A stretch of DNA of 24,265 bases, taken from a virus. Where the stretch lies: positions 21,199 to 45,463 of the IMG/VR virus record IMGVR_UViG_3300013772_000020, one strand, 5' to 3'. Position 1 is the first letter of the stretch; the number at the start of each line of letters is the position of its first letter. Shown in pieces: positions 921 through 23,827 of this stretch. The translations under genes and the position numbers were made by a program. A model generated the notes under the pieces. It did not search any database. It saw nothing but the letters and a program-made list of their open reading frames with translations, and was not told the origin of the DNA.

Positions 921-1079
921 TTGGAACGGAACCATCACCGTGACCACGAGTGTCCCCACTGCAACGGTACCGTCTTCAATCAGACCGCCGACGGACGTCT
1001 CTGCCTCACCTGCAATAGGGTGAAGGAGCACGAGAGACCACCCTCTGCCTTTCTATCGGCTCTCGGACAAATCGTATGA
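921..1079 (+). CDS. Candidate zinc-ribbon microprotein
   Basis: The frame is open from 906 to a TGA at 1077-1079. It contains H-E-C-P-H-C-N-G-T-V-F then G-R-L-C-L-T-C-N-R-V, two C-x2-C knuckles 16 residues apart, a textbook zinc-ribbon layout. The only usable start is TTG at 921 (52 residues), without a clear ribosome binding site, so the true start or an upstream frameshift is unresolved. The protein ends S-A-F-L-S-A-L-G-Q-I-V, resembling the tails of four other proteins in the window. The double CxxC is hard to get by chance; function is unknown. Confidence 0.5.
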   Translation: MERNHHRDHECPHCNGTVFNQTADGRLCLTCNRVKEHERPPSAFLSALGQIV

Positions 1080-1182
1080 TAGAAGGGAAGATCGATAGAA
1101 TTTAAAGAAATGCACCACGATCTCAATGATCATCTCGTATTACATAACCAGATTCTTTCTTTATCTCCGAGGCTTAAGCAAA

Positions 1183-1542
1183 ATGGGCATATCTACCCCC
1201 ACCGTCGCTGCCCACAATATCCTGGCCCAGGTCAATAGCGCCGGCCAATCGGTAGAGCCTGGCGTTCACTTTCGAGCGTCAGCTCCCATCGTTGCATCGG
1301 CCTATCTCAGACTGGCCTGCCAGGTCCGAACCCTCTACGACGCGATAGCTCACGGTGATCCAACTCACCGTGAATGGCTGAAGACTACCCTGGCCGATCA
1401 TTTCGACGGCTCAGATTTAGGAGTGTCCAATGGCAAAGAAGAAGCGCGTATCGGCGAAGGCTCTCAAAAGCATCAGGGCGGCCTACCCCCGCGCCAAGCC
1501 GGCAAAGAAGAAGTCGAAGGGCAAGCGCAAGGCAAAGCGTGA
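1183..1542 (+). CDS. Hypothetical phage protein
   Basis: A 119-residue protein. ATG at 1183 is preceded by CGAGG about ten bases upstream; an upstream ATG at 1126 would add a hydrophobic stretch but has no ribosome site. The first ~82 residues look conserved in style: an N-terminal V-H-F-R-A-S-A-P-I-V-A-S-A-Y-L-R-L-A, then Y-D-A-I-A-H-G-D and H-R-E-W-L-K. This suggests a small helical protein. The last ~37 codons overlap the next gene out of frame by 113 nt and are Gly/Lys/Gln-rich, probably a dispensable tail. No function is recognisable. Confidence 0.55.
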   Translation: MGISTPTVAAHNILAQVNSAGQSVEPGVHFRASAPIVASAYLRLACQVRTLYDAIAHGDPTHREWLKTTLADHFDGSDLGVSNGKEEARIGEGSQKHQGGLPPRQAGKEEVEGQAQGKA

Positions 1543-1855
1543 GGCTCGGATCGAGACGGCGACGCTGATCCCGACCGACTGGCACGCGCAGATGGCGCCA
1601 GTGGTGAATCAGCTCGTAGCGTCGACCACGGCTGTGACGAAGCTTCTCTCAGAAGCGATCGGCGTCCTGTCCCTGATCGCCGAGGTGCTCGACACCTCTG
1701 GCATCAAGAAGCCGAAGGCGGGGGCCACGAAGCGGGCGCAGCCGAAGCCACCGGGCCTAGACGAGGCTGAGGCGGCCGAAGACTTCGACGATGAGGCATC
1801 CAAGGCCATGGCGGAAGACAACGCCGAAGAGACCGAAGAGGAGTCGGACGCATGA
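1430..1855 (+). CDS. Charge-polarised helical protein, unknown
   Basis: A 141-residue protein with an excellent AGGAG site six bases before the ATG. Residues 1-42 are extremely basic and Lys/Ala-rich, like a histone-tail DNA-binding segment. Residues ~48-88 form an amphipathic helix (M-A-P-V-V-N-Q-L-V-A-S-T-T-A-V-T-K-L-L). Residues 105-141 are strongly acidic (E-E-T-E-E-E-S-D-A). The split of charge suggests nucleic-acid binding with an acidic interaction tail, but this is inference. Its stop overlaps the next start (ATGA at 1852). Confidence 0.65.
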   Translation: MAKKKRVSAKALKSIRAAYPRAKPAKKKSKGKRKAKREARIETATLIPTDWHAQMAPVVNQLVASTTAVTKLLSEAIGVLSLIAEVLDTSGIKKPKAGATKRAQPKPPGLDEAEAAEDFDDEASKAMAEDNAEETEEESDA

Positions 1856-2145
1856 GCAGCGAAACGGAAAGGCTCGGCTCCATTCGCGTGGTGACCGACA
1901 ACGACGACGGTACGGCTCGCATCGGCGACCTCGACGGCGGCTTCGATGAGAACAGGCTCCTGCTTTTTCTTCAGCGTGAGGGCGAGCGCGGCTTCGCGGC
2001 CATCTGCGAGAAGCTGATCTACATGGGAGCGACGGCTCGCGAGACGTGGCACGCCGTCCGCCGGGCGCAACAGGCTGGCAGCCTCTTCGCCGTAGCTCCG
2101 GCGGTAGACCTCTACCCGAAGAGCGAGTGCCACGATGCTGACTGA
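1852..2145 (+). CDS. Hypothetical protein, translationally coupled
   Basis: A 97-residue protein starting in an ATGA overlap with the preceding stop. The N-terminal third (I-R-V-V-T-D-N-D-D-G-T-A-R-I-G-D-L) looks like a small beta hairpin. The rest is helical, with the segment E-R-G-F-A-A-I-C-E-K-L-I-Y-M-G-A-T-A-R-E-T-W-H-A-V-R-R. No known domain can be named. It is the first gene of a long coupled chain running to 6569. Confidence 0.65.
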   Translation: MSSETERLGSIRVVTDNDDGTARIGDLDGGFDENRLLLFLQREGERGFAAICEKLIYMGATARETWHAVRRAQQAGSLFAVAPAVDLYPKSECHDAD

Positions 2146-2263
2146 GCCGCAGCGCCGGGCGCTCTGGTCGATGGTGTCCTCGACGGCGGCCTTCCTGATC
2201 ATGGGGATGATCGTTTGGGGCGTGGTCGCCATCATCCTGAGAATGCATCCGCGCGGTGGATAA
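2135..2263 (+). CDS. Tiny single-pass membrane protein
   Basis: A 42-residue ORF, ATG at 2135, overlapping the previous gene by 11 nt. A short polar N-terminus (MLTEPQRRALW) is followed by a continuous hydrophobic stretch (A-F-L-I-M-G-M-I-V-W-G-V-V-A-I-I-L) and a basic tail R-M-H-P-R-G-G. This is a clear single membrane-spanning segment, probably N-out/C-in by the positive-inside rule. Function unknown; a holin/exclusion-type role cannot be tested from sequence alone. Confidence 0.55.
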   Translation: MLTEPQRRALWSMVSSTAAFLIMGMIVWGVVAIILRMHPRGG

Positions 2264-2277
2264 GTTGGGGACAGGCT

Positions 2278-2538
2278 GTGAGCATAAGGCTTCAGGGTGC
2301 GGACGTGATCGAGGGCGAGCGGAAGATGACCCACGACATCTTTCGGGAGCGGCATCACCTGGTGATGCTGGCTCAATCGCTGGCCGACTACATCCAATTC
2401 ATGAAGAATCGCCCTGACGTTCTTGAAGTCCTGCTCGGCATCGGCAGCCCTGATGCATCGATTGCCGTCAGCCTGCTGGGCATGATGGAGTCCGACCTCA
2501 CCGAGTGGGACGCCAAACTCTTCGAGGTGTCGCAGTGA
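2278..2538 (+). CDS. Hypothetical helical protein
   Basis: An 86-residue protein if started at GTG 2278, which has GGGGA eight bases upstream. An ATG at 2326 with GAGGGCGAG upstream gives 70 residues and is equally defensible. The body is helical: L-V-M-L-A-Q-S-L-A-D-Y-I-Q-F-M-K-N-R-P-D-V-L and A-V-S-L-L-G-M-M-E-S-D-L. It ends in a GTGA overlap with the next gene. No family recognised. Confidence 0.6.
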   Translation: MSIRLQGADVIEGERKMTHDIFRERHHLVMLAQSLADYIQFMKNRPDVLEVLLGIGSPDASIAVSLLGMMESDLTEWDAKLFEVSQ

Positions 2539-2705
2539 TTCATAAAACGAAGGTGATCATCAGCGGCGGCCACCGGGCGAGACAGCAAACGACTGTTTGC
2601 GAGCTGAAGATCAAAGAACTGCCAGACGGCGACAAGTCGGTGAGTTACTGGCTGGGTGTCGGCTGCCAGCAGTGTCGGGCGAAGAAGAAGGGGGCGCGTC
2701 GGTGA
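2535..2705 (+). CDS. Small beta-rich protein with a C-terminal C-x2-C
   Basis: A 56-residue ORF starting at GTG 2535 in a GTGA overlap. It reads I-H-K-T-K-V-I-I-S-G-G-H, then T-V-C-E-L-K-I-K-E-L-P-D-G-D-K-S-V-S-Y-W-L-G-V-G-C-Q-Q-C-R-A-K-K-K. One Cys plus a C-x2-C near the basic C-terminus suggests a small metal-binding or nucleic-acid-binding protein. It stops in a GTGA overlap with the 2702 gene. Function unknown. Confidence 0.55.
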   Translation: MIHKTKVIISGGHRARQQTTVCELKIKELPDGDKSVSYWLGVGCQQCRAKKKGARR

Positions 2706-3442
2706 GCGAAGACGAAGACCTGACGAAGCCACCGAAGTTTGTGCGCAAGACGAAGTACGCTTCCAAGAAGACCGTCGTCTTCGACGAAGACAAGCGCCGT
2801 CAGCGGGCGATCGAGCACACCGGCGCTCACGACCGCTCGATGCTGATTGTCGACAACCTCATCTGGGAATACTGCCTCACTGGCGGCACCGATGCGCCGC
2901 TGACTTTCATGACCACAACCAAAAGCATTCCAGTCGAGGCCGCGCGCCGCTACCTGCTGCTGATCCCATCGGGCGAGTGGTACGCCCGAAAGAAGATCGT
3001 TCAAGACACGACGACCGCAACTGTGGTGAAGCGGCACGTCGACATCGTCGCTGAGATGAATGATCGGCATATCTCTTCGGCGAAGCTGGGCATGGCGAAG
3101 GCGATCGAGTTTTTAACCAAAATGAAAATCGAGGAGCGTCGCGACAAGTACGGCCGTCCTTACTTCCACGGCTTCAAGCCCAACGACCTCCGTCAACTGA
3201 TGGAGGTGATCGAGAAGGCGCAGAAGATCCACCGGCTGGCGCTAGGTCTCAATGCCGACGAGGGCTCGATTCAAATTTGGCAGAACATCACCAACACGCT
3301 CAACACCCATGGCAACGTTCACGAAGGCGAGCACGAAGTGAAGGTGCTAGAGTCGAAGCTCACCTACGATGAGATCAAAAAATTGATTCAAGCCGAAGAG
3401 AAGGCCAAAGACGGCGCTATCGACGTGGAGCACGAGCAATGA
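2702..3442 (+). CDS. HTH-like phage protein, possible terminase small subunit
   Basis: A 246-residue protein from GTG 2702 (GTGA overlap, GGGGG upstream). After a basic N-terminus it has I-W-E-Y-C-L-T-G-G-T-D then T-T-K-S-I-P-V-E-A-A-R-R-Y-L and G-E-W-Y-A-R-K-K. A short helix-turn-helix followed by W-x-x-R-K is the layout often seen at the front of terminase small subunits. Long helices follow (K-R-H-V-D-I-V-A-E-M-N-D-R-H-I), and the tail is acidic and helical. The assignment is inference: it sits 10 kb from the large subunit, whereas TerS genes usually neighbour TerL. It could equally be a transcriptional or replication factor. Confidence 0.65.
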   Translation: MSEDEDLTKPPKFVRKTKYASKKTVVFDEDKRRQRAIEHTGAHDRSMLIVDNLIWEYCLTGGTDAPLTFMTTTKSIPVEAARRYLLLIPSGEWYARKKIVQDTTTATVVKRHVDIVAEMNDRHISSAKLGMAKAIEFLTKMKIEERRDKYGRPYFHGFKPNDLRQLMEVIEKAQKIHRLALGLNADEGSIQIWQNITNTLNTHGNVHEGEHEVKVLESKLTYDEIKKLIQAEEKAKDGAIDVEHEQ

Positions 3443-3663
3443 AAGCCATTCTGCGATTCGACCTTGATGATCTCGACGACCGCATGGCGCACCTTCGCTG
3501 CACGAAGGCGCTCGACCTGGCAATCGCCATCAATGACATTTACGACCTCTGTAGAAGGTGGCGCGACAACCCGCCCACCGGCTGCTCGCATGACGCGATC
3601 GACATAATCTGTGACAAGATCCATCAGACGATCGAGATCGACATAAGCGAGATGCTTCGGTGA
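3439..3663 (+). CDS. Conserved small phage protein
   Basis: A 74-residue protein starting in an ATGA overlap. The pattern M-K-A-I-L-R-F-D-L-D-D-x-D-D-R-M followed by A-L-D-L-A-I-A-I-N-D-I-Y-D-L-C-R-R-W and a C-terminal amphipathic helix matches a type of small protein seen widely in phages (beta strand, then three helices). No function is established for that type that I can name. It ends in a GTGA overlap. Confidence 0.7.
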   Translation: MKAILRFDLDDLDDRMAHLRCTKALDLAIAINDIYDLCRRWRDNPPTGCSHDAIDIICDKIHQTIEIDISEMLR

Positions 3664-3881
3664 AGTCATGTCGATGCAATTGTGGTTACACGTGTGGCGG
3701 TCCTGGCGTCTGCAAGGAAATCGGTTCCGATTTTGTCTGTAGCCACTGGGTGAAAGACTGCGACCACGATTGGGGCGGCTGGGTGGAGCGCAAGCTACCG
3801 AACGGCGCACGCGAAGGATCAGTGGTCTGCAAGGTGTGTGACGTGGTGGCGATAGACCACGACTGTGCAGTCGGGCCATGA
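3660..3881 (+). CDS. Cys-rich zinc-binding protein
   Basis: A 73-residue protein (GTG start in a GTGA overlap) with nine Cys. The N-terminal half has C-R-C-N-C-G-Y-T-C and a later V-C-S-H; the second half has C-D-H-D-W-G-G-W-V-E then S-V-V-C-K-V-C-D-V-V-A-I-D-H-D-C. The C-terminal module, C-x-H-D-W/F-x-G-W and C-x2-C-x4-A-I-D-H-D, resembles a treble-clef-like zinc motif repeated across phage small proteins. The N-terminal Cys cluster may be a second metal site. Function unknown. Confidence 0.7.
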   Translation: MKSCRCNCGYTCGGPGVCKEIGSDFVCSHWVKDCDHDWGGWVERKLPNGAREGSVVCKVCDVVAIDHDCAVGP

Positions 3882-4099
3882 TCAAGTTTGAATCGACTGG
3901 CGTCTATCAGGCACCGGGGCGCGGGCGCGTTTACGTGGTGGAGCTTGACCACGAAGTGAAAGACTTCGATTGGCTGATCGGGAAAGAAGCGCTGATCGAC
4001 GGCCACTATCTTCAGGTGAAAGGCGTAGAACTGTTCACCCATCACGCGCCCTGGCGAAAGGGTGAGCCAATCGGCATCCGAGTCGAGGAGAAGAAGTGA
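3878..4099 (+). CDS. Small beta-rich conserved phage protein
   Basis: A 73-residue protein starting in an ATGA overlap. The segment I-G-K-E-A-L-I-D-G-H-Y-L-Q-V-K-G-V-E followed by R-K-G-E-P-I-G-I-R-V has the strand-turn-strand look of a small beta barrel. Similar short ORFs are common in temperate phages without assigned roles. Stop and next start overlap as GTGA at 4096. Confidence 0.65.
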   Translation: MIKFESTGVYQAPGRGRVYVVELDHEVKDFDWLIGKEALIDGHYLQVKGVELFTHHAPWRKGEPIGIRVEEKK

Positions 4100-4266
4100 A
4101 GTGCATCGTACTCGTTAGAGGCAAGCTCAAGACTGGCACGCTGTCGAAGATCGAATACGGTCGTGCCACCGTGACCGTCAGCACCGGCGGCGACATCCCG
4201 GAGGAAACGCTCACGGTGCCCATTCGTGACGTGACGAAAGCGTGGAGCGACGAGAAGGCGGCATGA
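4096..4266 (+). CDS. Small beta-strand protein
   Basis: A 56-residue ORF starting at GTG 4096 in a GTGA overlap and ending in an ATGA overlap at 4263, so it is coupled on both sides. The sequence alternates hydrophobic and polar residues: K-C-I-V-L-V-R-G-K-L-K-T-G-T-L-S-K-I-E-Y-G-R-A-T-V-T-V. This implies a small all-beta domain, SH3/OB-like in feel. Unknown function. The coupling on both ends is the main evidence that it is real. Confidence 0.6.
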   Translation: MKCIVLVRGKLKTGTLSKIEYGRATVTVSTGGDIPEETLTVPIRDVTKAWSDEKAA

Positions 4267-4574
4267 TCCCAATCCTGATCATCGCTATGCTCTCAGGCTT
4301 TGTTGCGATCTATCTGACGATCGAGGCGCTGAAGCGGCGCATGGTGAAGCGCGAAGAGTCGCCGATCGATGCAATGCTTTCGGAAAATGAAACGGTGAAG
4401 CTCGCATTCGGCCCCGGCAACGGCGTCTTTACGGCCGCCATAGCGGAGCACGAGATACGACAGGCGCCGCGTGAGCCGACGCCGTTTGAGCAAGCGATAG
4501 AGCAAATGACCAGAGAGTCAGTGAAGACCGGCTATCTCACCGGCACGCTCGATGACCTGAAGGAGTTGACGTGA
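4263..4574 (+). CDS. Membrane-anchored small protein
   Basis: A 103-residue protein; ATG 4263 (ATGA overlap) is preferred over the upstream ATG at 4242. Residues 1-22 are a hydrophobic anchor (MIPILIIAMLSGFVAIYLTI) followed by basic K-R-R-M-V-K-R, so the soluble remainder probably faces the cytoplasm. The rest is polar and helical (F-E-Q-A-I-E-Q-M-T-R-E-S-V-K-T-G-Y-L-T-G-T-L-D-D-L-K-E-L). Function unknown. Confidence 0.65.
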   Translation: MIPILIIAMLSGFVAIYLTIEALKRRMVKREESPIDAMLSENETVKLAFGPGNGVFTAAIAEHEIRQAPREPTPFEQAIEQMTRESVKTGYLTGTLDDLKELT

Positions 4575-4837
4575 GCAAGCCTGAGACCGGTGCGCAGTGG
4601 GGCGCCTACGGTAGCCACCGAAAGAAGCGGCAGCCGAAGGTAAAGCAACGCACCTGTCTGGCTCATCATTGCGCCACGCTGATCGACGGTGACAGCTTTA
4701 TGTGCCGGGCGCACTGGAACAAGGTGCCTGATCACGTGCAAGCCGGCATGCGACTGTCACTACGTGAAGAGCGCCAGGCTGACTTCGACGAGTATCTGCA
4801 TCGCGCTCGCTCAGCCTGCCTCGGTGAAGCCTCGTGA
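4571..4837 (+). CDS. Zinc-finger-like small phage protein
   Basis: An 88-residue protein starting in a GTGA overlap. The central motif C-L-A-H-H-C-A-T-L-I-D-G-D-S-F-M-C-R-A-H-W-N-K-V-P supplies C-x4-C, C-x2-H: a compact zinc-binding arrangement typical of small phage proteins that read C-R-x-H-W-x-x-V-P. A basic N-terminus (H-R-K-K-R-Q-P-K-V-K-Q-R) precedes it. The remainder is helical and acidic. Probable nucleic-acid or protein adaptor; role not established. Confidence 0.7.
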   Translation: MSKPETGAQWGAYGSHRKKRQPKVKQRTCLAHHCATLIDGDSFMCRAHWNKVPDHVQAGMRLSLREERQADFDEYLHRARSACLGEAS

Positions 4838-4965
4838 AGAATGCGGTCATGGTGATTGTCGGTAGCGCCATGGCGCTATGGCTGCTCGCTAACGACCTTC
4901 GCTATGAGGCTGGCGCTGTTGCGCTCTCGGTGGTTTTTCTGCTCGTGATGGGGATCTTTGACTGA
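4834..4965 (+). CDS. Tiny membrane protein with two hydrophobic segments
   Basis: A 43-residue ORF, GTG 4834 in a GTGA overlap, ending in a TGATG overlap with the next gene. Two hydrophobic stretches (V-M-V-I-V-G-S-A-M-A-L-W-L-L-A and A-V-A-L-S-V-V-F-L-L-V-M-G-I-F) are separated by N-D-L-R-Y-E-A-G. This is a minimal helical hairpin in the membrane. Holin-like geometry is possible, but lysis genes are not otherwise visible nearby, so I leave the function open. Confidence 0.6.
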   Translation: MKNAVMVIVGSAMALWLLANDLRYEAGAVALSVVFLLVMGIFD

Positions 4966-5301
4966 TGGAGTTTTTCAGCGAAGACGACTTTCCGGAAGTC
5001 GGGCCGCACGAGCGCGCTCGTGCCGTAGCTCAGGCCAATGTTGCATTCAACGACCGCATCAAACGCTTCGCTGACAAAATCAATCCATACAGCGATAAGG
5101 CCGAGGTGATCGGTGGCAACATTGTCGCGGCTCTGGCGGTCGGCACGATGACAGACTTTAAGTGCGATGCGAATAACGATGGAGTGCGAAAGATCGTGCT
5201 CAAGGTGACGGTCAAGCCTCGCAGACGGGTTTGATCATCCAAGCGCTCCCGGCTCACCGCCACCGAAGACGACTGCGTTTCTGGAAGGACTCGAAGAGTG
5301 A
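4965..5301 (+). CDS. Hypothetical protein, probably completed by a +1 frameshift
   Basis: The zero frame from ATG 4965 ends at a TGA at 5232-5234 (89 residues, mostly helical with a beta segment K-I-V-L-K-V-T-V-K). A +1 frame open from 5209 continues to a TGA at 5299-5301 with D-H-P-S-A-P-G-S-P-P-P-K-T-T-A-F-L-E-G-L-E-E. That extension has no start codon of its own, and its stop overlaps the next start as GTGA. The end resembles the C-termini of other proteins here. The switch region is GGG-TTT-GA, with frame codons GTT TGA T, reminiscent of the CTT-TGA site of prfB. A real indel or sequencing error is also possible. Confidence 0.5.
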
Positions 5302-5714
5302 AGAGAATCGATCCCGTTAAAGACATGCGTTCATGGAAAGAGCAGGCGCGTCGCATGCCGCGCGAGATGAGGCCGCAGCGTCAACAGCGACCGATCTTCT
5401 TCCATGCGCCTGAAGTGAAGCCCATCACGCCACCGAAGATCGATCTCACTTCTGAGCAGATGACGTGGATGAAAAACCGCATCATCGATTTAGTGAAGCA
5501 CTCGGATCACGGTTATCACTCGACGGCAGCCATTCGCAACGCGCTCGGCTGTGATCCGGCAGCGCTCTCCGACGTTCTCGGCGCCATGAGTGAAGCTGGC
5601 CTTGTCGTTGTTGAAGCTGATCCATCGGTGTGTGGCGGCATGCGTGTCAGTCTCGCACCCGAGCCATTGCCTGAGGGTGCTGGTAATTTTCTGCTGGCGA
5701 TGGAAGAGCTATGA
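5298..5714 (+). CDS. Winged-helix DNA-binding candidate
   Basis: A 138-residue protein starting at GTG 5298. The N-terminal ~45 residues are basic and Pro/Gln-rich, probably disordered. Residues ~55-105 read I-I-D-L-V-K-H-S-D-H-G-Y-H-S-T-A-A-I-R-N-A-L-G-C-D-P, then L-S-D-V-L-G-A-M-S-E-A-G-L-V-V-V-E. This helix / HTH / recognition helix / beta-wing order fits a winged-helix DNA-binding domain. The C-terminus is G-N-F-L-L-A-M-E-E-L, related to the recurring tail motif of this window. A regulator of phage transcription is plausible, not proven. Confidence 0.65.
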   Translation: MKRIDPVKDMRSWKEQARRMPREMRPQRQQRPIFFHAPEVKPITPPKIDLTSEQMTWMKNRIIDLVKHSDHGYHSTAAIRNALGCDPAALSDVLGAMSEAGLVVVEADPSVCGGMRVSLAPEPLPEGAGNFLLAMEEL

Positions 5715-6052
5715 AAGACGACAAGCCACTTGTGATGCGAGACGGCAAGACGTGCGCCATTGATCCGAAGACAACGGAGCGCTCGGCTATTCTTGAAATA
5801 CTCGGCTCGCTCGCGGCGCTATGCGTGCGGGCCTTCGAGAAAGATGACCTGATGAAAGAAGCGGCCAAAGACACGCGCACGCATTTTAAGAAGCTCGAAC
5901 GCTTTCTCCGAAAAGAGTGGGGTATAGTGGAAGGCGAAGCTCTGCTCGATAAGCCGATCGCTGAAGCAGAAGCCACGGCCGCCATAGTCGAAGCCGAGAT
6001 CAAGAAGATCGAAACGCCGGCATTCCTGGATGCCTTAAGAGAGATCAAATAG
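5711..6052 (+). CDS. Hypothetical helical protein ending in FLDALREIK
   Basis: A 113-residue protein (ATGA overlap start). Mostly helical and charged: A-I-L-E-I-L-G-S-L-A-A-L-C-V-R-A-F-E-K-D-D then H-F-K-K-L-E-R-F-L-R-K-E-W. An Ala/Glu-rich linker leads to T-P-A-F-L-D-A-L-R-E-I-K. That terminal peptide is nearly identical to the end of the 14747 gene 9 kb away, while the bodies of the two proteins are unrelated. It suggests a shared docking tail. Function unknown; the stop overlaps the next start (TAGTG). Confidence 0.65.
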   Translation: MKDDKPLVMRDGKTCAIDPKTTERSAILEILGSLAALCVRAFEKDDLMKEAAKDTRTHFKKLERFLRKEWGIVEGEALLDKPIAEAEATAAIVEAEIKKIETPAFLDALREIK

Positions 6053-6459
6053 TGGCCAAGTTGATCCCCATCACTATGCCCGCTTTCGTGATGTTGCTCG
6101 CCAAGGCGCAGACGGTCGGCGTGATTGGCTTTCCCGGTGTCGGCAAGACGACGCTCTGCACGTCGATCATGTTTGCCAACAAAGCAGTTATTCACACCGA
6201 CGACTATTTGAAAGAGCACACGCACGACGAGCGGCCGGCGAAGATCGTTGCCGATCTCAAGTCGCCTTATGTTGTCGAAGGCAACGAGGTGACGCGGCTC
6301 ATCACGCGCGGCCTGAAGCTCGACCTGCTAGTCTGTGTGAACAGCCCCACCGAGAAGACCAGCAAGTCGATGAACGGGCTTCGTGGCCGGCTGCAAAAGT
6401 TTCTGGCGCAGTATCCTGGCAACGTCTACGTGATCAATCCCCGCGCCGAGGTGACATGA
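6052..6459 (+). CDS. Small P-loop NTPase/kinase-like protein
   Basis: A 135-residue protein from GTG 6052 (overlap with TAG). It has a clean Walker A, G-F-P-G-V-G-K-T at residues 26-33, and a following H-T-D-D-Y-L (48-53). The latter resembles the D-D-x-x acid-base motif of small nucleoside/zeta-toxin-like kinases. The central beta strand D-L-L-V-C-V-N (~96-102) fits a P-loop fold. It is shorter than typical nucleoside kinases (~200 residues), so the substrate is unclear. It is the penultimate gene of the early chain. Confidence 0.75.
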   Translation: MAKLIPITMPAFVMLLAKAQTVGVIGFPGVGKTTLCTSIMFANKAVIHTDDYLKEHTHDERPAKIVADLKSPYVVEGNEVTRLITRGLKLDLLVCVNSPTEKTSKSMNGLRGRLQKFLAQYPGNVYVINPRAEVT

Positions 6460-6569
6460 TGCCGTGGGATCTTCGACCTCTGCAAATGCATGACGACCGG
6501 GAACTGATGAAACTGATGCGTGAGGTGGAGCGCGACCTCTACGCGGAGCTAGTCGGCGGGCCGCTCTAA
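6456..6569 (+). CDS. Short helical peptide, last gene of the early block
   Basis: A 37-residue ORF, ATG 6456 (second ATG at 6459), starting in an ATGA overlap. The sequence is one amphipathic helix (D-R-E-L-M-K-L-M-R-E-V-E-R-D-L-Y-A-E-L-V). It is followed within 4 nt by a perfect palindrome and then a terminator, so it closes the coupled chain. Unknown function. Confidence 0.5.
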   Translation: MMPWDLRPLQMHDDRELMKLMREVERDLYAELVGGPL

Positions 6570-6572
6570 ACC

Positions 6573-6590
6573 AGCTTCACCGGTGAAGCT
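6573..6590. promoter_or_regulatory. 18-bp perfect palindrome, copy 1
   Basis: AGCTTCACCGGTGAAGCT is a perfect 18-bp palindrome just after the last early gene. Its 14-bp core CTTCACCGGTGAAG recurs in a second perfect palindrome at 22496-22513. There is no T-run after it, so it is more likely a binding site for a dimeric regulator than a terminator. Confidence 0.55.
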
Positions 6591-6621
6591 GACTACGATG
6601 AATCAAATCAGTCGCTTATGC

Positions 6622-6647
6622 TGGCGCCCCATCTCGGGCGCCATTTT
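6622..6647 (+). terminator. Rho-independent terminator closing the early operon
   Basis: An 8-bp perfect GC-rich stem (TGGCGCCC / GGGCGCCA) with a 6-nt loop is followed directly by TTTT. It lies between the early block (ends 6569) and the first structural gene (6733), where a transcription boundary is expected. Confidence 0.75.
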
Positions 6648-6732
6648 GCGGCTGAATCATGAAGTCTCGCCTCACGTCAAGCTGTGTGCGATACTTGACG
6701 GCATCTAGCTTCCAAAAATCTGGATCTGCCTT

Positions 6733-7101
6733 ATGGCGAATGCCGACTTTCGCAAACCGCGTCCCATTGCGATCATGACGTGCGCGTCATCGGTGGCGAT
6801 GGGCGACCTTGTCTTCCAGTCGACGACTGCCGACAACACGGCGGTGACGGCGACGGACAATCTGACAGTGGCTCCCGTCTTCGGCATCGTCACGACGAAG
6901 CTCGCGCCGACAAGCTGTGAAGTCACCTACCAGGGCATCGTCGCGACCTCGGTCGCACGCGGCAAAGTCTTTCTTGGAACTGATGGGAAACCAACGGGTA
7001 CGGAGCCAACGACCGGCTACGTGCAGACCCTTGGTGTCTCGTTTGGCAACGGCACGATGAATTTCCAGCCTGAGCTGATCCGCGCCAAGCGCTCACCCTG
7101 A
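6733..7101 (+). CDS. Virion structural protein, decoration-type beta module
   Basis: A 122-residue, Thr/Val/Gly-rich, all-beta protein with no signal peptide. M-G-D-L-V-F-Q-S, then P-V-F-G-I-V-T-T, then V-T-Y-Q-G-I-V-A-T, then G-K-V-F-L-G-T-D-G-K and L-G-V-S-F-G-N-G-T-M. This is the strand order seen in the last ~100 residues of the 7497 fibre protein, so it is a stand-alone copy of that beta module. Such modules occur in phage decoration and fibre proteins. First gene after the terminator; the ribosome site is weak. Confidence 0.7.
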   Translation: MANADFRKPRPIAIMTCASSVAMGDLVFQSTTADNTAVTATDNLTVAPVFGIVTTKLAPTSCEVTYQGIVATSVARGKVFLGTDGKPTGTEPTTGYVQTLGVSFGNGTMNFQPELIRAKRSP

Positions 7102-7118
7102 CTAGAGGTTTAAGCAAC

Positions 7119-7475: not shown

Positions 7476-7496
7476 ATCCACCAGGAGGCTAGGCAC

Positions 7497-8792: not shown

Positions 8793-8807
8793 GCTTTCTC
8801 TCACGCG

Positions 8808-8842
8808 AGGGAGGGAGTCTTTGTTTAGGCTCCCTCCCTTTT
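8808..8842 (+). terminator. Strong Rho-independent terminator after the fibre gene
   Basis: GGGAGGGAG at 8809-8817 pairs perfectly with CTCCCTCCC at 8830-8838. The stem is extended by A-T outside and by T-G and C-G inside. It is followed by TTTT. It lies 16 nt after the fibre stop codon and 14 nt before the next start, so the next gene needs read-through or its own promoter. Confidence 0.85.
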
Positions 8843-8855
8843 GGCTTAGGCTGGC

Positions 8856-9650
8856 ATGGCGACTTCAAAATACACAGTGCTCTCGGAAGAGAAGGACGGG
8901 ACCGATCTCGCCTATCCCACCGAGCTTGACCTGAGTAGCGGCGCCAGCAACATTCTCCTGGGCGTTGCTGCCAGGATCGACGTCTTCGAGACTCAGGCAA
9001 CGGTCAATGGCACGCTGTCGCTCACGGCTACCAATAGCAGCTTTCAGTATTTCACCGGCACGACTGCTGGGCAGATTCTCAAGATGCCTGACGCGACCAC
9101 CCTGCAAAACGGGATGGTCTACGAGTTTTATAACCAATCGACGCAGACGATTGCCGTCCAGGATAGTACAGGTGCCGCTCTATTCACGCTCTCGTCCCTG
9201 TCAATCGCCTATGTACGACTACAAACCAATAGCACAGTAGCAGGCGGCTGGATCTCCTGGCAGGTTCTAACCAGCACAGTCGCCAGCGGCATTCTCAACT
9301 ACCAGGTCGTTTCGTCAACCACTTTCACGACGACATCGACGACCGCTGTCTTGATCACGGGGTTTACCGTGACACCGATAGCAGGCACTTATGCTATCTG
9401 GTTCAACGGGAATCTCAAGTCGTCATCCTCCGGATCAACCGTGACCTGCACTATTTATAAAGCTGGCGTAGCGGTTGCCGACTCCGTGCGGGACACACAC
9501 GTGGCGGCGGCCAACGCCGATGTAACTGGCGTATCCATGACAGTGGTGTCCTTTAGCGGAACTGACACCTGTGACGTGCGCGTCAACACCAGCTCGGCAA
9601 CATTGACAGTCGGTTCGCGGACGCTTCTTCTTATTCGCATGGGGCCGTAA
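8856..9650 (+). CDS. Phage virion protein, beta-rich, fibre-like
   Basis: A 264-residue protein very rich in Ser/Thr/Val/Ala, with Y-F-T-G-T-T-A-G-Q-I-L-K-M-P-D-A and I-A-V-Q-D-S-T-G-A-A-L-F-T-L in the front half. The latter resembles fibre-type repeats that describe a uniform beta prism. The second half (~155-264) looks like a jelly-roll head domain (Y-A-I-W-F-N-G-N-L-K-S, V-T-C-T-I-Y-K-A-G-V-A-V-A-D-S). Its position in the structural block supports a tail or surface protein. Exact role unknown; the ribosome site is weak. Confidence 0.65.
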   Translation: MATSKYTVLSEEKDGTDLAYPTELDLSSGASNILLGVAARIDVFETQATVNGTLSLTATNSSFQYFTGTTAGQILKMPDATTLQNGMVYEFYNQSTQTIAVQDSTGAALFTLSSLSIAYVRLQTNSTVAGGWISWQVLTSTVASGILNYQVVSSTTFTTTSTTAVLITGFTVTPIAGTYAIWFNGNLKSSSSGSTVTCTIYKAGVAVADSVRDTHVAAANADVTGVSMTVVSFSGTDTCDVRVNTSSATLTVGSRTLLLIRMGP

Positions 9651-9652
9651 GC

Positions 9653-10504
9653 ATGACGACGGTTTTTAACTACACCGTGACTTCGCCCTTCGCCGTAGAT
9701 CAGCTCGATGCCGCGATCAGGGCGAGCGCGAATATCACTATAGCTCTGGCCAATGGCTCAACGCTGCTCGGCGGGACTGCTCTCACAGTGACTTTCCGGG
9801 CAGACTTGCCTGACGACGGCACAGGTGTCGCCTCCATCACCTGCCAGCCAGCCGTGCTTGCTGCGATCGTGGCCTCCAATACGGGAGTAGGGCTGACCTA
9901 CACGCCGGCACCTATCCCTGTCACGATTCCAAGCCAGCCGGTTGACACCGATGGCTCTCCTCTAGCACGGACCAAGCAAACAACGACCGGCTGGACCTTC
10001 CAGGATCATAATTTTGAGTATCAGGCGGGAACGATCGGCAGCGTCTACTCGGTCAACTGCGCAGGCGTCGCCTTTGGCTTCGCGACGCTGAAGTTTTACG
10101 AGCTGGTCTCAGGAGTCGAGAGCCTGATCACCGGTGGCAATTTGAATCAGACCTACGTGACCACCAACGCCATTCGCACCGACGTCGTCTGGGAGATGAC
10201 CAACGACTTTGACGTGATCGAAGGCGATCTTCGGTTCTTCGACACGATGACCTCTGACGTCTATCTCTTTGCGATCATCGTGCCCGACGTGTCCTACGCT
10301 TATGGCGGCTCGCGCGAGCTGATCACTGGCGGCAAGAATCTGCGCTTTATCCGGCCGCAAGATCCGATCGTGGTCAACGGTCGGGTGAGCAAGCATTTGG
10401 TTTACAGCGCCACCTACCACACGAATAAATTTCAAATTATCCTGCGCCACGTCGCTGGCTTCGCATCCAGATTCTCGATGGCGGTTCAGCTCTACAAACT
10501 CTGA
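9653..10504 (+). CDS. Phage structural protein, unknown
   Basis: A 283-residue beta-rich protein starting 3 nt after the previous stop. The N-terminal ~95 residues repeat short strands (I-T-I-A-L-A-N-G-S-T-L-L-G-G-T-A-L-T-V-T-F). Then comes an aromatic region with D-V-Y-L-F-A-I-I-V-P-D-V-S-Y-A-Y-G-G-S and a C-terminal I-I-L-R-H-V-A-G-F-A-S-R-F-S-M-A-V-Q-L-Y. No catalytic signature. Composition and neighbours indicate a virion component; I cannot name the part. Confidence 0.6.
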   Translation: MTTVFNYTVTSPFAVDQLDAAIRASANITIALANGSTLLGGTALTVTFRADLPDDGTGVASITCQPAVLAAIVASNTGVGLTYTPAPIPVTIPSQPVDTDGSPLARTKQTTTGWTFQDHNFEYQAGTIGSVYSVNCAGVAFGFATLKFYELVSGVESLITGGNLNQTYVTTNAIRTDVVWEMTNDFDVIEGDLRFFDTMTSDVYLFAIIVPDVSYAYGGSRELITGGKNLRFIRPQDPIVVNGRVSKHLVYSATYHTNKFQIILRHVAGFASRFSMAVQLYKL

Positions 10505-10510
10505 GGGCTT

Positions 10511-10684
10511 ATGAACGACTACAGAGGCTTCAAGTATTGGCTGGTCGAGACGAAGTCGAGTGGCGACAAGGTTTGGCGCATCCAATTTCCCGACGGTGGC
10601 CACAAGACGCCGCCGCTCGTGCGCACGTCGGAGGCTGACGTCAAAGCCGACATCGACAAGCTGATCGTCGACTCCGGCTCATAG
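10511..10684 (+). CDS. Small conserved-looking protein in the structural operon
   Basis: A 57-residue ORF with GAGGG four bases before ATG 10511. Sequence: F-K-Y-W-L-V-E-T-K, V-W-R-I-Q-F-P-D-G-G-H-K-T and a C-terminal helix E-A-D-V-K-A-D-I-D-K-L-I. This suggests beta-beta-alpha, as in small beta-hairpin DNA/protein-binding domains. Role unknown. It is followed by a 63-bp AT-richer gap before the next gene; no convincing promoter could be defined there. Confidence 0.6.
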   Translation: MNDYRGFKYWLVETKSSGDKVWRIQFPDGGHKTPPLVRTSEADVKADIDKLIVDSGS

Positions 10685-10747
10685 CTTCTTTCCAAGGGCC
10701 AGGTATTTGTGCTTAACTACAGTAAATAATGGAATCTTGGGGACCTG

Positions 10748-11314
10748 ATGGGGATCGAGGCTGCGGTCGGCGTGCCAGCGCCGCTTTCTTTTACTACCCC
10801 AGATGGGAATACGTCTCTGGGCGTGCGTGCCTACGTGCAGCAGCTTGATGGCACCGACCTTGGCTTCGTCACGGTGCCGCATATGGCGCGAGGCCGCTAC
10901 ACGGCGCCCTACACCTTCGGCGTCCCGGGCGTCTTCATGGTCGACTTCATCCCCTACGTCGACACCTCATTCGCTGCCGAAGACGTGACCTACACGCGAC
11001 GCACCGACATCTTCGACGTTCGTCCTGACGTGTGGGATGAGCCGACGGCGCAGCATCAGGCGCCTGGCACCTTCGGTGCCGCCGTAGTGAGCCCGCAAAT
11101 AATCAGAGAGGCCATCGCTGTCGCGGTGGATGCCGACGTGCTGACGGTCATAGTCGAAAGCGACGTGCTGACGGTCGCAGTCGAAGATCAAGAGACGACG
11201 GCTTTGGCAGAAGAGCCTGCCGAGCTGACTGGTGTTGTCGACGAGGGTGCGGTCGAGGCGACCGTTGAGGACGATGGATTCACTGTCACGACCGACGAAG
11301 AGGAGACGACCTGA
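10748..11314 (+). CDS. Structural protein with an acidic repeat tail
   Basis: A 188-residue protein with GGGGA before ATG 10748. Residues 1-95 are a beta domain (L-S-F-T-T-P-D-G-N-T-S-L-G-V-R-A-Y-V, P-Y-T-F-G-V-P-G-V-F-M-V-D-F), Ig-like in pattern. Residues ~120-188 are a highly acidic Val/Glu/Thr tail containing D-V-L-T-V-I-V-E-S and D-V-L-T-V-A-V-E-D in tandem (9-residue period). The stop overlaps the next start as TGATG, so both are likely made together. Function unknown. Confidence 0.6.
   Translation: MGIEAAVGVPAPLSFTTPDGNTSLGVRAYVQQLDGTDLGFVTVPHMARGRYTAPYTFGVPGVFMVDFIPYVDTSFAAEDVTYTRRTDIFDVRPDVWDEPTAQHQAPGTFGAAVVSPQIIREAIAVAVDADVLTVIVESDVLTVAVEDQETTALAEEPAELTGVVDEGAVEATVEDDGFTVTTDEEETT
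11134..11176 (+). repeat. Tandem 27-bp repeat inside a coding region
   Basis: CGACGTGCTGACGGTC occurs at 11134-11149 and again, identical, at 11161-11176. The 27-bp offset equals nine codons, so the repeat is in frame and encodes repeated D-V-L-T-V. It suggests recent internal duplication in the acidic tail. Confidence 0.6.
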
Positions 11315-11976
11315 TGGGTGCCGCGAATATTCTCCAGGGCAAGGATGCCAGTTTCCGTCTCTTCGTCACCGACGCCGACGGCCATCCGGTTGACTTGACG
11401 GGCTGGACGATGATCCGCCTGCGCATGGCCGCCGACAGCGGCTATATCGAAAAGTTGGCGCCGCTCACTGATGCCGTGAACGCGCAGCAGACGGTGATCT
11501 TCGCTGGCGGCCCGCCGAGCGCTGGCACCTTCAGCTTTGGCTTCAACGGCACGACCTCTTTCGCCTTGGCGTATTCGTCAACCGCAGTCGACGTGCAGAC
11601 CGCCTTTCGCGCCTCAAGCGGTTTGCGTGACGTGACCGTCGGCGGCAACTTCAACGGTTTCATCTTTAACTTTGTTGGCGCCGACGGTGCGCGCGTGCAG
11701 CCGGCCATCACGGTGGCAAACAGCAGCCTGGTGAACGGATCGACGGCACTGACGCCGTCGGTTAGCTACGACGTCGTAGGCGTGCCGCAGTCGGGTATCG
11801 ACGTCGTCAACATCAGCCAGGGCGCGCTCAACGTTTACCTGAGCGAGGGCGACACGCTGGCGCTGACAGTCGGCACGAACCAGGACATGGACCTGCTGGT
11901 CCGCATCGGCTCGAAGGATCTCAACATCCCTTTGATCAAAGGGATGATCAACGTCACGGAAAACCCATTCGTGTGA
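11314..11976 (+). CDS. BppU-N-like baseplate/fibre-type protein
   Basis: A 220-residue protein starting in a TGATG overlap. The first ~45 residues, G-K-D-A-S-F-R-L-F-V-T-D-A-D-G-H-P-V-D-L-T-G-W-T-M-I-R-L-R, match the look of the beta-sandwich N-terminal domain of baseplate upper (BppU-type) proteins, which plugs receptor-binding components into the baseplate. The middle (~65-150) is a Gly/Phe/Ser beta region that may be an inserted domain. The C-terminus returns to a D-T-L-A-L-T-V-G-T-N-Q-D-M-D strand pattern. The family call is by motif only. Confidence 0.6.
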   Translation: MGAANILQGKDASFRLFVTDADGHPVDLTGWTMIRLRMAADSGYIEKLAPLTDAVNAQQTVIFAGGPPSAGTFSFGFNGTTSFALAYSSTAVDVQTAFRASSGLRDVTVGGNFNGFIFNFVGADGARVQPAITVANSSLVNGSTALTPSVSYDVVGVPQSGIDVVNISQGALNVYLSEGDTLALTVGTNQDMDLLVRIGSKDLNIPLIKGMINVTENPFV

Positions 11977-11983
11977 GGTTGTC

Positions 11984-12352
11984 ATGCTGAGCGCTCTCAA
12001 GTCTCTTCACGAGAAGATCATCGGCAAGGTCCCATCCGGCGCCAAGCGCTCATCGCATTGGCCGAGTGTGAGGAAGCTCTTCCTCGCAGATGAGCCGGAG
12101 TGCGCCGCGTGCGGTGGGGCGAAGAAACTTGAGGTCCATCATAAGAAACCATTTCACTTGCAGCCGGATCTGGAGTTAGATCCAAAGAATCTAATTACGT
12201 TATGCGAAGCGGGGACAGGCGGCATCAATTGCCACTTGGCGATCGGCCATCTCGGGGACTTCAAAAAGTTCAACCCGAACGTGGAAGACGATGCTGCCGC
12301 CTGGAAGGCGAAGCGTGCAGGAGCCCCCAAAAGCCTCGACAGCGCCGCTTGA
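11984..12352 (+). CDS. HNH endonuclease, packaging-associated type
   Basis: A 122-residue HNH nuclease; GAGGT upstream of ATG 11984. Metal-site and catalytic elements are C40-x2-C43, L-E-V-H52-H53-K-K-P-F, N69 in P-K-N-L-I-T-L-C74, then C83-H84 and G-H89-L-G-D-F-K-K-F-N-P-N. This N-C-H-x5-G-H-x-x-D-F ending is common in phage HNH proteins. These make a metal-dependent nick or cut in DNA and, next to the large terminase, are known to support cos-type packaging. TerL lies about 0.8 kb downstream. High confidence in the domain, moderate in the role. Confidence 0.85.
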   Translation: MLSALKSLHEKIIGKVPSGAKRSSHWPSVRKLFLADEPECAACGGAKKLEVHHKKPFHLQPDLELDPKNLITLCEAGTGGINCHLAIGHLGDFKKFNPNVEDDAAAWKAKRAGAPKSLDSAA

Positions 12353-12512
12353 GTATCGCGGCTGGTGCTATGAGCCAATCGGTTTTGAGAGCGGACGCCA
12401 GCGCTACCGTTTCACCATGCCCGACGGAAGAACCCTACACATGCCGTGCGCCGACGACTTTGAGATCAGGCAATTCATTGAGTCCATGCAAAGTGAGCTA
12501 AGGGGACTTTGA
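12315..12512 (+). CDS. Small conserved-looking protein
   Basis: A 65-residue protein if begun at GTG 12315, which has GGAAGG upstream; it overlaps the HNH gene by 38 nt. ATG 12291 is an alternative that adds eight residues. The core Y-R-G-W-C-Y-E-P-I-G-F-E-S-G-R-Q-R-Y-R-F and T-L-H-M-P-C-A-D-D-F-E is a small beta sheet, followed by a helix (I-R-Q-F-I-E-S-M). No function recognised. The stop overlaps the peptidase start (TGATG). Confidence 0.55.
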   Translation: MQEPPKASTAPLEYRGWCYEPIGFESGRQRYRFTMPDGRTLHMPCADDFEIRQFIESMQSELRGL

Positions 12513-13123
12513 TGTCAGCAACACTCGATTTGATTCGTCGGAAGCTGCTCGATGCCCTGACGCCTGTCGTCAAGCAAGTCGGGCAAACGCATATGCCCTA
12601 CACGCACAAGCTCGTGACCGGCGTCGACTACTTCGCCGTGCAAAAGCTGATCAGGCCCGGCATGGTTTGGCTCACCCACACAGAGGGCGAGGCATCGACG
12701 CTGCTGATCCCGGGCTTCTTCACCCACGCCGCCATGGCGATCGACGAGAAGTCCGTTGTGCAGGCCACCGGCGCCTCTGGTGTCGCGGTCGCCGATCTCG
12801 TCAGCTTCATGCTGTCGAAGGACTACGTCGTGCTGCTGCGCCCAACGTTTGCCACCGACGTGCAGATGAGCGTGGCGGCAGCTTGGGCAGCGAAGCAAGT
12901 CGGTGCGCCCTACGACTACGAGTTTGGCATGAATGTGAAAGCGTTTTACTGCTCAGAGCTGGTGTGGGCGAGCTACCGCGACACGATCGGCGACAGCGTG
13001 CCGTTTGTGATGACCGAGGAGCTTGGCGTCCGGACGGTCTCACCCGACTCTATCTGGCAGGACAAAGGCAAGTTTGAAACCGTGTGGCAATCGGCATCGT
13101 GTGTCGGGAGGCGTCTAGTCTAG
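12512..13123 (+). CDS. YiiX/NlpC-P60-like papain-fold peptidase
   Basis: A 203-residue protein; ATG 12512 in a TGATG overlap, AAGGGG upstream. It has the circularly permuted papain order: a hydrophobic F-F-T-H72-A-A-M-A-I-D with the catalytic His first, then Y-D-Y-E-F-G-M-N-V-K-A-F-Y-C147-S-E-L-V-W with the nucleophile Cys in a helix start. This is the arrangement of YiiX/YebB-like peptidases (Peptidase_C92), which act on peptides, amides or acyl groups. In a phage packaging/structural cluster it may cleave cell wall or process a virion protein. The substrate is inference. Confidence 0.7.
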   Translation: MSATLDLIRRKLLDALTPVVKQVGQTHMPYTHKLVTGVDYFAVQKLIRPGMVWLTHTEGEASTLLIPGFFTHAAMAIDEKSVVQATGASGVAVADLVSFMLSKDYVVLLRPTFATDVQMSVAAAWAAKQVGAPYDYEFGMNVKAFYCSELVWASYRDTIGDSVPFVMTEELGVRTVSPDSIWQDKGKFETVWQSASCVGRRLV

Positions 13124-14577
13124 TGCGTCCTGTCATTGAATCGAAGTCCTTCTCACGCAGCTCACTCCACGAAGTCTTTCGCCGGAACGACCTGGCGTAT
13201 TTTGCCAAAGACATGCTCGGCATGGAAATCTCCGGTCACCACGAGGAGTGGTCGGAGCTGGTGGCGAAGAACACGCGGCTTGCTCTTAACGCTCCGCGTG
13301 ACCATGGCAAGAGCTACTTCTTCAGCTTCGCCTATGCCATCTGGCGCCTCTACTACGGTTGGATTCCGCCGCTTCCTGACGCCAGCTTCAAGTCCATTCC
13401 GCGCCGCTCGCTCGGCTATATCTTTTCTTCCAGCCAAGAAAACGCCATCAAGTTTGTCGAGCAGGTGAAGGTCGAGCTGGAGTCGAATCCACGGCTTCGC
13501 CACCTTGTGCCGGTATCCAAGCGCGACAGCACATGGAGCAAGACCGAGATCGTTTGCGCCAACGGTGCGACGCTTCGAGCGAAGGGCTGGGGGAATGCAG
13601 TGCGGGGCGGTCACCCTGGCTGGGTGATCTGCGACGACGTGCTTGGCGAAGAGAACCTTTACTCCGAGGTCCAGCGGCAAAAGCAGATCGATTATTTCTA
13701 TTCGGCCGTGACACCGATGGTCGTGCCTGGTGGATCAATCTGCGTGATCGGCACGCCGTTTCACCAGGAAGACCTCTACGCCGACTTAGAGCGCAATCCC
13801 GAGTATTTCTTCAAGCGCTACTCGGCGATCAAGAAGGACGGCACGGCGCTGTGGCCGACGCGCTACAGCCGCCATATGCTCGATCAGAAGAAGCGCGAAG
13901 TCGGCTCGACGCGCTTCACTCGGGAATATTTGTGCGTGCCGATCAGCGACACGAACAGCCTTTTCCCTGAAAATGTCGTGCGTGAAAACTTCCGTGACGA
14001 CCTCTCGCTCGTCACTGAGATGACCGCGAGCTACCGAAACGAGTACACGCTTTTCACTGGCGTTGACCTGGCGCTGTCCTCAACGATTGGCGCTGACTTC
14101 ACCGTGATCACGACGATTGGTGTCGACAAGCACAAGAACCGCCGGCTCTTCGACATCCGGCGCTTCAAGGGCCGGACGATGACCGAGCAGCTTCACGAGA
14201 TCGAAGACGTGTACCGCTGCTACCGGCCTGCTAAGATATACGTGGAAGACAATCAGTTTCAGCGCGTCTTCGCCGACGCTCTCGTCAGAAATACCGACCT
14301 GCCTGTCGAAGGCTTCACGACCACGGCGCACAACAAAAACTCTCTTGAGCGCGGTGTGCCGTCCCTTCAGATCCTCTTCGAGAACAAGAAATTCATGATC
14401 CCTCGGAAGACTGAGCGCGACCGTCGCATCACCGACGACCTGCTCCACGAGCTACGCTGCTTCACCTACGTGAACGGCAAGCTTCAGGGCCTTGGTGCCC
14501 ACGACGACTGTGTGATGAGCCTTTGGATTGCGAACGAGTGCTCGCAGTCTTCCGAGTTTAGCTTCAGCTTTGGGTGA
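13123..14577 (+). CDS. terL: Terminase large subunit
   Basis: A 484-residue packaging motor. GTG 13123 overlaps the previous TAG and has GGGAGG upstream. ATPase domain: Walker A A-P-R-D-H-G-K-S (57-64), Walker B V-I-C-D-D (168-172) and the coupling motif G-T-P (210-212). The C-terminal RNase-H-like nuclease has its acidic residues in T-G-V-D (D315), Y-V-E-D (E375/D376) and A-H-D-D (D461/D462). The complete motif set indicates a functional enzyme that translocates and cuts DNA at the portal. The portal gene is 5.7 kb downstream, a larger gap than usual. Confidence 0.95.
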   Translation: MRPVIESKSFSRSSLHEVFRRNDLAYFAKDMLGMEISGHHEEWSELVAKNTRLALNAPRDHGKSYFFSFAYAIWRLYYGWIPPLPDASFKSIPRRSLGYIFSSSQENAIKFVEQVKVELESNPRLRHLVPVSKRDSTWSKTEIVCANGATLRAKGWGNAVRGGHPGWVICDDVLGEENLYSEVQRQKQIDYFYSAVTPMVVPGGSICVIGTPFHQEDLYADLERNPEYFFKRYSAIKKDGTALWPTRYSRHMLDQKKREVGSTRFTREYLCVPISDTNSLFPENVVRENFRDDLSLVTEMTASYRNEYTLFTGVDLALSSTIGADFTVITTIGVDKHKNRRLFDIRRFKGRTMTEQLHEIEDVYRCYRPAKIYVEDNQFQRVFADALVRNTDLPVEGFTTTAHNKNSLERGVPSLQILFENKKFMIPRKTERDRRITDDLLHELRCFTYVNGKLQGLGAHDDCVMSLWIANECSQSSEFSFSFG

Positions 14578-14580
14578 TGC

Positions 14581-14778
14581 ATGAATAGGTTTGAGAAGGC
14601 GCGGATGGAGGCCGATCGCAAGGCGCGCAATCAGGAAATCGCCTTGGCGGTGAAGCGTGGCCAATATATCCCGCCGCCGATGGACACTCACTCCAGCTTC
14701 TTTCCGGCCCGGCCGGTGATCCAAAAGGACCGAAAGGAGATGGCGCGTGTCTATGGCGAAGGTGAAACCACCGACTAA
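14581..14778 (+). CDS. Small charged protein after terminase
   Basis: A 65-residue ORF beginning 3 nt after the TerL stop and overlapping the next gene by 32 nt. It is basic and helical at the N-terminus (F-E-K-A-R-M-E-A-D-R-K-A-R-N-Q-E-I-A-L-A-V-K) and then has I-P-P-P-M-D-T-H-S-S-F-F-P-A-R. No clear ribosome site, so coupling to TerL translation is probable. Unknown role. Confidence 0.5.
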   Translation: MNRFEKARMEADRKARNQEIALAVKRGQYIPPPMDTHSSFFPARPVIQKDRKEMARVYGEGETTD

Positions 14779-15013
14779 GGCGCAGATCACCGACGAGATG
14801 CTGGCGCACCTGAAGGTGCATTTAGCCAAGGACGTGTGGTCGAAGATGACCACTTCGGTCGTGAGAGAGGTCTTGTCTTGCTTGGCGGACTGGGCTTACA
14901 GTGACCGCTTGAACGTCCAATCAGCAGCGATAGAACCGGAGCGACCGAAGTCCGGTCGTGAAAGTCCAGAGGAGCATTCAAGTTTCCTCGACGCTTTACG
15001 TGAGATTCGCTAG
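14747..15013 (+). CDS. Hypothetical protein ending in FLDALREIR
   Basis: An 88-residue protein; AAGGAG lies six bases before GTG 14747 (ATG 14753 is the alternative). The body is helical (I-T-D-E-M-L-A-H-L-K-V-H-L-A-K-D-V-W). An apparently disordered Pro/Ser/Glu linker then leads to H-S-S-F-L-D-A-L-R-E-I-R. The last nine residues match the end of the 5711 protein except for K to R. The codons differ mainly at synonymous positions, implying protein-level conservation of the tail. Confidence 0.65.
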   Translation: MSMAKVKPPTKAQITDEMLAHLKVHLAKDVWSKMTTSVVREVLSCLADWAYSDRLNVQSAAIEPERPKSGRESPEEHSSFLDALREIR

Positions 15014-17173: not shown

Positions 17174-17183
17174 GAGAAATCTG

Positions 17184-23481: not shown

Positions 23482-23503
23482 CGCTGCCTCGAAACGCCGA
23501 GAC

Positions 23504-23523: not shown

Positions 23524-23570
23524 TGCCGCCTGAGCGGCTGTGGGGGAGACTCTCTAACCCCGGAGAACTA

Positions 23571-23752: not shown

Positions 23753-23827
23753 CGTTTCCCCTTGTGTCCTGCTCGGTCGCTCATTATGTTCGGCGCCGCC
23801 CAGGAACCCAACGGAGGCCGAGCACAC

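Follow-up and report, generated by a model that had tools for sequence, protein, structure and literature searches.

The DNA stretch analyzed here (the window, 24,265 nucleotides) comprises bases 21,199–45,463 of a 45,463-base IMG/VR virus record and encodes several small proteins that end in a common short tail of the form F-(LMIV or polar)-x-(A/E/D)-L-x-x-(I/L)-COOH, located mostly right at the stop codon. Tails of this kind are carried by 7–18 proteins per genome in the 45,463-base record and three diverged relatives, and about 5–12% of the proteins in the best-covered lineage members bear one on otherwise unrelated small proteins; these totals and fractions refer to records that may be incomplete. 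The closest known sequence to the tail is the C-terminal tip of gp32-type single-stranded DNA-binding proteins (SSBs). We propose, with a probability of roughly 55%, that the tail is a gp32-tip-like C-terminal docking element bringing numerous small proteins to a receptor of phage replication and recombination.

A preliminary description of the window had assigned the tail to five proteins, and three of these proved to be intact genes, ending AFLDALREIK, SFLDALREIR and NFLLAMEEL (Table 1). The tail of the first scored 14.1 with a position-specific scoring matrix (PSSM), rank 2/82 in its own genome; a Pfam search with this 113-amino acid (aa) protein gave no match, and no homologues of it were found in IMG/VR. 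The NFLLAMEEL protein matched MarR_2 with an expectation value (E) of 0.0023, which is below the curated cut-off. The other two copies stand less firmly. The open reading frame (ORF) ending AFLSALGQIV was not called by coding score and gave weak Pfam matches (best E 0.0065). AFLEGLEE belongs to no intact gene. With its reading frame closed at 5206, the peptide requires a frameshift; slippage by +1 at GTT TGA T (5229–5235) would join it to the 4965–5234 ORF as ..RRRV-DHPSAPGSPPPKTTAFLEGLEE. The arrangement of GTT TGA T followed by DHPSAPGSPPPKTTAFLEGLEE in the +1 frame (5229–5301) may represent a programmed +1 shift, for which the heptamer presumably provides an RF2-like context, or a one-base error in the TTT run.

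Relatives were retrieved through the large terminase (TerL) and portal-like proteins and also through a UvsY-like family, a label resting on a weak profile match and on the gene order shared with an annotated phage. Genes were called with a home-made, coding score-based finder. Four records are rich in tails: the 45,463-base record itself (G000), G006 (115 kb), G007 (108 kb) and G012 (110 kb). The lineage encodes a DnaE polymerase, a UvsY-like mediator, a gp32-type SSB, RecA and SbcCD-like proteins. No close DNA relatives of the record were found among phage records, and a portal search for the host in GTDB genomes returned distant matches only (34–35% identity).

The preliminary description had left open that the motif might be no commoner at C-termini than in shuffled sequences; instead, it is commoner there than at internal positions, in shuffled sequences or in control phages. 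With the chance level taken from the same pattern counted at internal cut points of proteins, the F-form was present at the C-terminus of 5/83 called genes over the whole 45,463-base record, versus 0.08 expected internally (P = 2.8e-8), and of 8/144 genes in G007 (P = 8e-14). When I, L, V or M was also allowed in place of F, 10/166 proteins of G006 matched (P = 1.5e-10). The core F-x-x-x-(L/M/I)-x-x-(hydrophobic) was found exactly at the end of 15/151 proteins of G012 (P = 5e-22), eight of them encoded within 49,919–52,902. Because the pattern was broadened as more genomes came in, and because the broad core pattern also matches 7/478 proteins of the four control phages, the tails could in principle be ordinary C-terminal helices singled out by post hoc pattern choice. 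This explanation is largely refuted by the independent genomes and is now scarcely tenable: the F-form used in G007 had been made from the window's tails, and matrices trained on the tails of the other genomes placed the tails of the held-out genome at the top in 4/4 genomes. The strict pattern fits 4, 11, 6 and 16 proteins in G000, G006, G007 and G012, respectively, versus only 1/478 control proteins, and that single match is the SSB of phage Cyrano.

The bodies that carry the tails are not homologous within a genome, as had been suggested for the window, when clipped of their tails and compared all against all; they include WGR, winged-helix and DUF6744 proteins together with orphans. Eight tail-bearing, mutually unrelated small genes stand almost in a row in G012 (49919–52902; L076:9919–12902), and paralogy of this row was rejected since the comparison of bodies gave no homology. 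One tail carrier in G006 (58104–58658; L043:18104–18658) weakly matches the ribosomal L7/L12 C-terminal domain (E 0.007).

Nor is the tail lost in homologues. Four orthologous families retain it across diverged genomes: the family of the gene at record position 17356 (the 17356 family), the gene after TerL, the DUF6744 protein and the WGR-domain protein. Members of the 17356 family, which sits inside the replication module, end in SFGSMMEEI, DFKSELEAI, NVTEALENL, EFKEGLESL and SFKEELEAL; the tail of one member, L069, is degenerate. Orthologues of the gene after TerL end in GFVDELKKI (L005 2647–2907) and SFISLLKKV (G004 9994–10254), and its positional counterparts in EFMSDLESL (L014), AFLDDLAELG (G001) and TFLEGLEEIK (G002). 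In the structure predicted for the 17356 family, the helical core is mostly above 90 in pLDDT (the per-residue confidence score) and the tail is disordered (residues 109–121, below 50), as expected of a docking tail beside a confidently folded core. Attempts to identify the fold of this family gave no Foldseek match below E 2; with VIA-align, the best match was a de novo helical protein (Z 5.0), and weak clamp-loader matches were not trusted.

Codon usage argues that the peptide, and not a recently copied DNA segment, is what has been maintained. The two best copies in the window do differ, as had been noted, at 6/9 codons of FLDALREI(K/R), five synonymous and one K/R, and selection on the peptide, claimed from that pair, is borne out by the wider statistics. 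Within a genome, codons at shared tail residues were identical in 39–46% of comparisons versus 36–47% predicted by codon usage. Tail codon identity is thus about equal to that given by codon usage, which indicates that the tails were not spread by recent DNA copying, and recent duplication of the tail was rejected on these grounds.

Tails are more alike within than between genomes, by a difference of 6.28 BLOSUM units (shuffled standard deviation 0.60; 0/5000). Orthologues common to several genomes, which act against clustering, were kept in this test. G007 tails have I as the last residue and E/D at −5, and G012 tails have L as the last residue and A/G/S at −5 (Fisher 2e-5 each); the I and L contents of the two proteomes are alike. 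The simplest reading of such genome-specific dialects suggests one receptor per phage, co-evolving with all of its clients, and lends support to the common partner that had been suggested for the small proteins.

Resemblance to the gp32-type SSBs points to where that partner may lie. The SSBs of the lineage end in a long acidic stretch followed by D-L-x-x-E-L-x-x-L-G-V or similar, and leave-one-genome-out matrices ranked their tips 5/82, 12/166, 8/143 and 19/151, just behind the real tails. Among the C-termini scanned in two phages without tails, nickie (100 of 112 kb covered) and Cyrano (50 of 108 kb), the SSB scored highest in each; a Klebsiella phage SSB (GLDDLLAELESL) scored like a true tail; and the tail matrix placed 16/17 gp32-type SSB tips, some of them near-identical, above most control C-termini (P = 0.002–0.03). 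In family searches the carriers gave no match to the gp32-fold core and mostly none to one another, so the tail would act like an SSB tip on proteins that are not themselves SSBs. The earlier analogy with the SSB tip was therefore right in kind for gp32-type phage SSBs and wrong for the bacterial tip: the E. coli DDIPF-type tip, ending in PF, gave no sequence match and a tail-matrix score of −8.8, below background.

Given the likeness of the tail to the end of the gp32-type SSB that the phage itself encodes, many small proteins probably share a docking place on the phage DNA-handling machinery. The tail would be a short linear docking motif, a predicted C-terminal amphipathic helix on a flexible linker, whose hydrophobic face is formed by F, L and I/L at i, i+4 and i+7. 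Its likeness to the SSB tip would have arisen by convergence, and the carriers would be recruited to a receptor in the replication-recombination machinery at a site that most likely also reads the SSB tip or derives from the SSB-tip site. Many small effectors would thereby be given one common address. T4 offers a precedent: gp32 peptide 248–270 binds the helicase Dda as a helix, and the paired substitutions A255E/L262A or V258E/F265A reduce this binding (PMC11551737).

Several observations weigh against this reading, the main objection being that the SSB tips are out of step with the genome dialects. In G012, the tails favor A at −5 and have L-COOH as their last residue, whereas the SSB has E at that position and ends in LGVE. 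SSB tips of the tail-bearing lineage also have L for F and 2–3 additional residues. The RAS14 SSB lacks a tail-like tip, and the T4 gp32 tip, TDLDDLLNDL, has the same spacing with a modest score (3.2 bits, P = 0.03). G001 and G013, relatives with few tails, are also members of the lineage. A receptor search among phage-encoded proteins (clamp and RNA polymerase families) gave no family match. Finally, the Dda-binding site of T4 gp32 is internal rather than at the very tip, and the last gp32 residues are disordered in the gp32–Dda structure (PMC11551737), which makes the comparison with the tail an analogy.

Other destinations for the tails were considered. The nearest known logic is that of the T4 sliding clamp gp45, which binds the tails of gp43, gp55 and gp33, unrelated proteins with interchangeable hydrophobic-acidic C-termini and variable linkers (PMC2988020, PMC7892883). 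By analogy, the tails might bind a sliding clamp and so keep effectors and transcription factors attached to DNA as it replicates. We consider this unlikely: the four tail-rich records contain no match to beta-clamp or gp45-type families (PF02768, PF02916), leaving a host clamp as a candidate, and the T4 motifs SLDFLFG, SLDFLYEAND and TLDFLL scored −2.7, −10.3 and −6.6 with the tail matrix, below background. The DnaE of these phages, moreover, ends without a tail.

That many carriers are small accessory proteins, several of them nucleic-acid-binding-like (WGR, MarR-like), would fit binding to the RNA polymerase of the host, or to some other hub in the host cell, that anchors host-takeover proteins, and the dialects could follow host differences. 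This possibility appears rather improbable, if a little less so than a clamp, because it leaves the likeness to the SSB tip unexplained; family searches gave no match to a phage RNA polymerase beta subunit, so the host enzyme would be needed, and to our knowledge no RNA polymerase-binding peptide matches the tail. The SSB-tip likeness is equally unexplained if the tails are a virion-loading signal that takes small proteins into the prohead, in the manner of T4 capsid-targeting or encapsulin cargo-loading peptides. One conserved carrier is indeed encoded beside TerL in several genomes, but many others, the 17356 family among them, lie in replication or accessory blocks, and we regard such a signal as quite improbable. 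Still less probable is a C-terminal degron that sends early proteins to ClpXP, Lon or FtsH; it would account for the C-terminal position and the hydrophobic last residue, yet the strict spacing, the F at −8 and the genome dialects go beyond general C-degron needs, and gp32-type SSBs, which are expected to be abundant, have similar ends.

Docking on the replication-recombination machinery can be extended, more tentatively, to a C-terminal address code. Up to 18/151 proteins, mostly lineage-specific orphans, would carry a genome-specific, SSB-tip-imitating tail leading to one hub, and the tail, apparently acquired independently, could make a replisome-associated effector of any small protein.

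Two further sets of C-termini resemble the tail. A lineage-specific protein is encoded between the UvsY-like and SSB genes (L003 8375–9334 and orthologues); it has a C-terminal F-L-D-x-L-x-E-I-like stretch that lies in a predicted helix and was thus not counted as a free tail, and it was rejected as the hub, its predicted fold being helical and only weakly ParB-like (Foldseek E 4.8). Another similar C-terminus, DDDL-x-x-IL-G-(D/E), occurs at G007 63928–64545, G012 18769–19440 and G013 16972–17781, the first two being homologous.

Some neighboring ORFs were named by eye. Window positions 3–233 contain the last part of an OB-fold ORF that resembles bacterial-type SSBs and ends without a tail, and the phage may accordingly carry two SSB types. 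A short NUDIX-like ORF is followed by an excisionase-like helix-turn-helix ORF and an incomplete tyrosine-integrase-like ORF at 23101–24265, where relatives have a protein of ∼650–1440 aa; possibly the record is chimeric or has a junction at its end. In relatives, a CsrA-like ORF lies beside TerL, and sigma-70-like ORFs lie between the TerL and portal-like genes (L005 2111–2539 and 3208–3903; G006 82022–82702).

Table 1. Tail-bearing and marker genes. Positions refer to the window unless given as record positions.
Feature	Position	Strand	Remarks
Possible zinc-ribbon ORF, 52 aa, TTG start	921–1079	+	Ends AFLSALGQIV; tail FLSALGQI+V at 1050–1076; weak member
103-aa ORF, hydrophobic N-terminus	4263–4574	+	Ends TLDDLKEL+T; weak tail-like C-terminus; PSSM 7.0, rank 6/82
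89-aa ORF	4965–5234	+	+1 frame runs on into Pro/Ser linker and AFLEGLEE
+1-frame extension ending AFLEGLEE	5235–5301	+	Tail FLEGLEE at 5278–5298; upstream frame closed at 5206
Winged-helix-like protein	5298–5714 (start maybe 5415)	+	Intact ORF; ends NFLLAMEEL; tail FLLAMEEL at 5688–5711
113-aa protein	5711–6052	+	Intact ORF; ends AFLDALREIK; tail FLDALREI+K at 6023–6049
Large terminase (TerL)	13084–14577	+	Marker for finding relatives
88-aa protein, directly after TerL	14747–15013	+	Intact ORF; ends SFLDALREIR; tail FLDALREI+R at 14984–15010
Portal-like protein (putative)	20239–22050	+	Marker for finding relatives
Copy outside window	record 46–216		GFLAGLDEL+DGVE
Copy outside window	record 944–1459		SFISALEEI+DGKREGGG
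Copy outside window	record 2040–2297		SFVEAIGAIE
Copy outside window, 17356 family	record 17356–17721		SFGSMMEEI

The functions of most small phage proteins are not known, and a shared address tag would join a dozen or more orphans per phage into one interaction network while posing a single, directly testable receptor question. That one docking motif can occur on several proteins is already known from the T4 clamp motifs (PMC2988020, PMC7892883); no report of a tail common to as many as 18 unrelated proteins within a single phage, or of genome-specific dialects, was found in the open-licence literature. If the proposal holds, docking by SSB tips and clamp motifs would reach beyond a handful of replication enzymes and become a means of recruitment used across the genome.

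The tail can be set beside four known systems. With the T4 clamp-binding motifs of gp43, gp55 and gp33 it shares the use of one interchangeable hydrophobic-acidic C-terminal motif on unrelated proteins behind a flexible linker, but sequence and spacing differ and no clamp is recognizable in the tail phages. The bacterial SSB tip (..DFDDDIPF) is likewise a short C-terminal docking tip on a disordered linker; there one protein serves many partners, whereas here many proteins would converge on one. In the T4 gp32–Dda helix, V258, L262 and F265 have the i, i+4, i+7 spacing of the tail F, L and I/L, although that site is internal and confined to the SSB, and Dda is not evidenced in the tail phages. 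Closest are the gp32-type SSB tips themselves (Pfam gp32/phrog_1192; Cyrano ..DDLLRELDSL, T4 ..TDLDDLLNDL), in which a run of acidic or polar residues leads into hydrophobics spaced i, i+4, i+7, close to the free C-terminus or right at it; in the tail phages, by contrast, such a tip is found on many non-SSB proteins, with F rather than L at −8 and with dialects not shared by the SSB.

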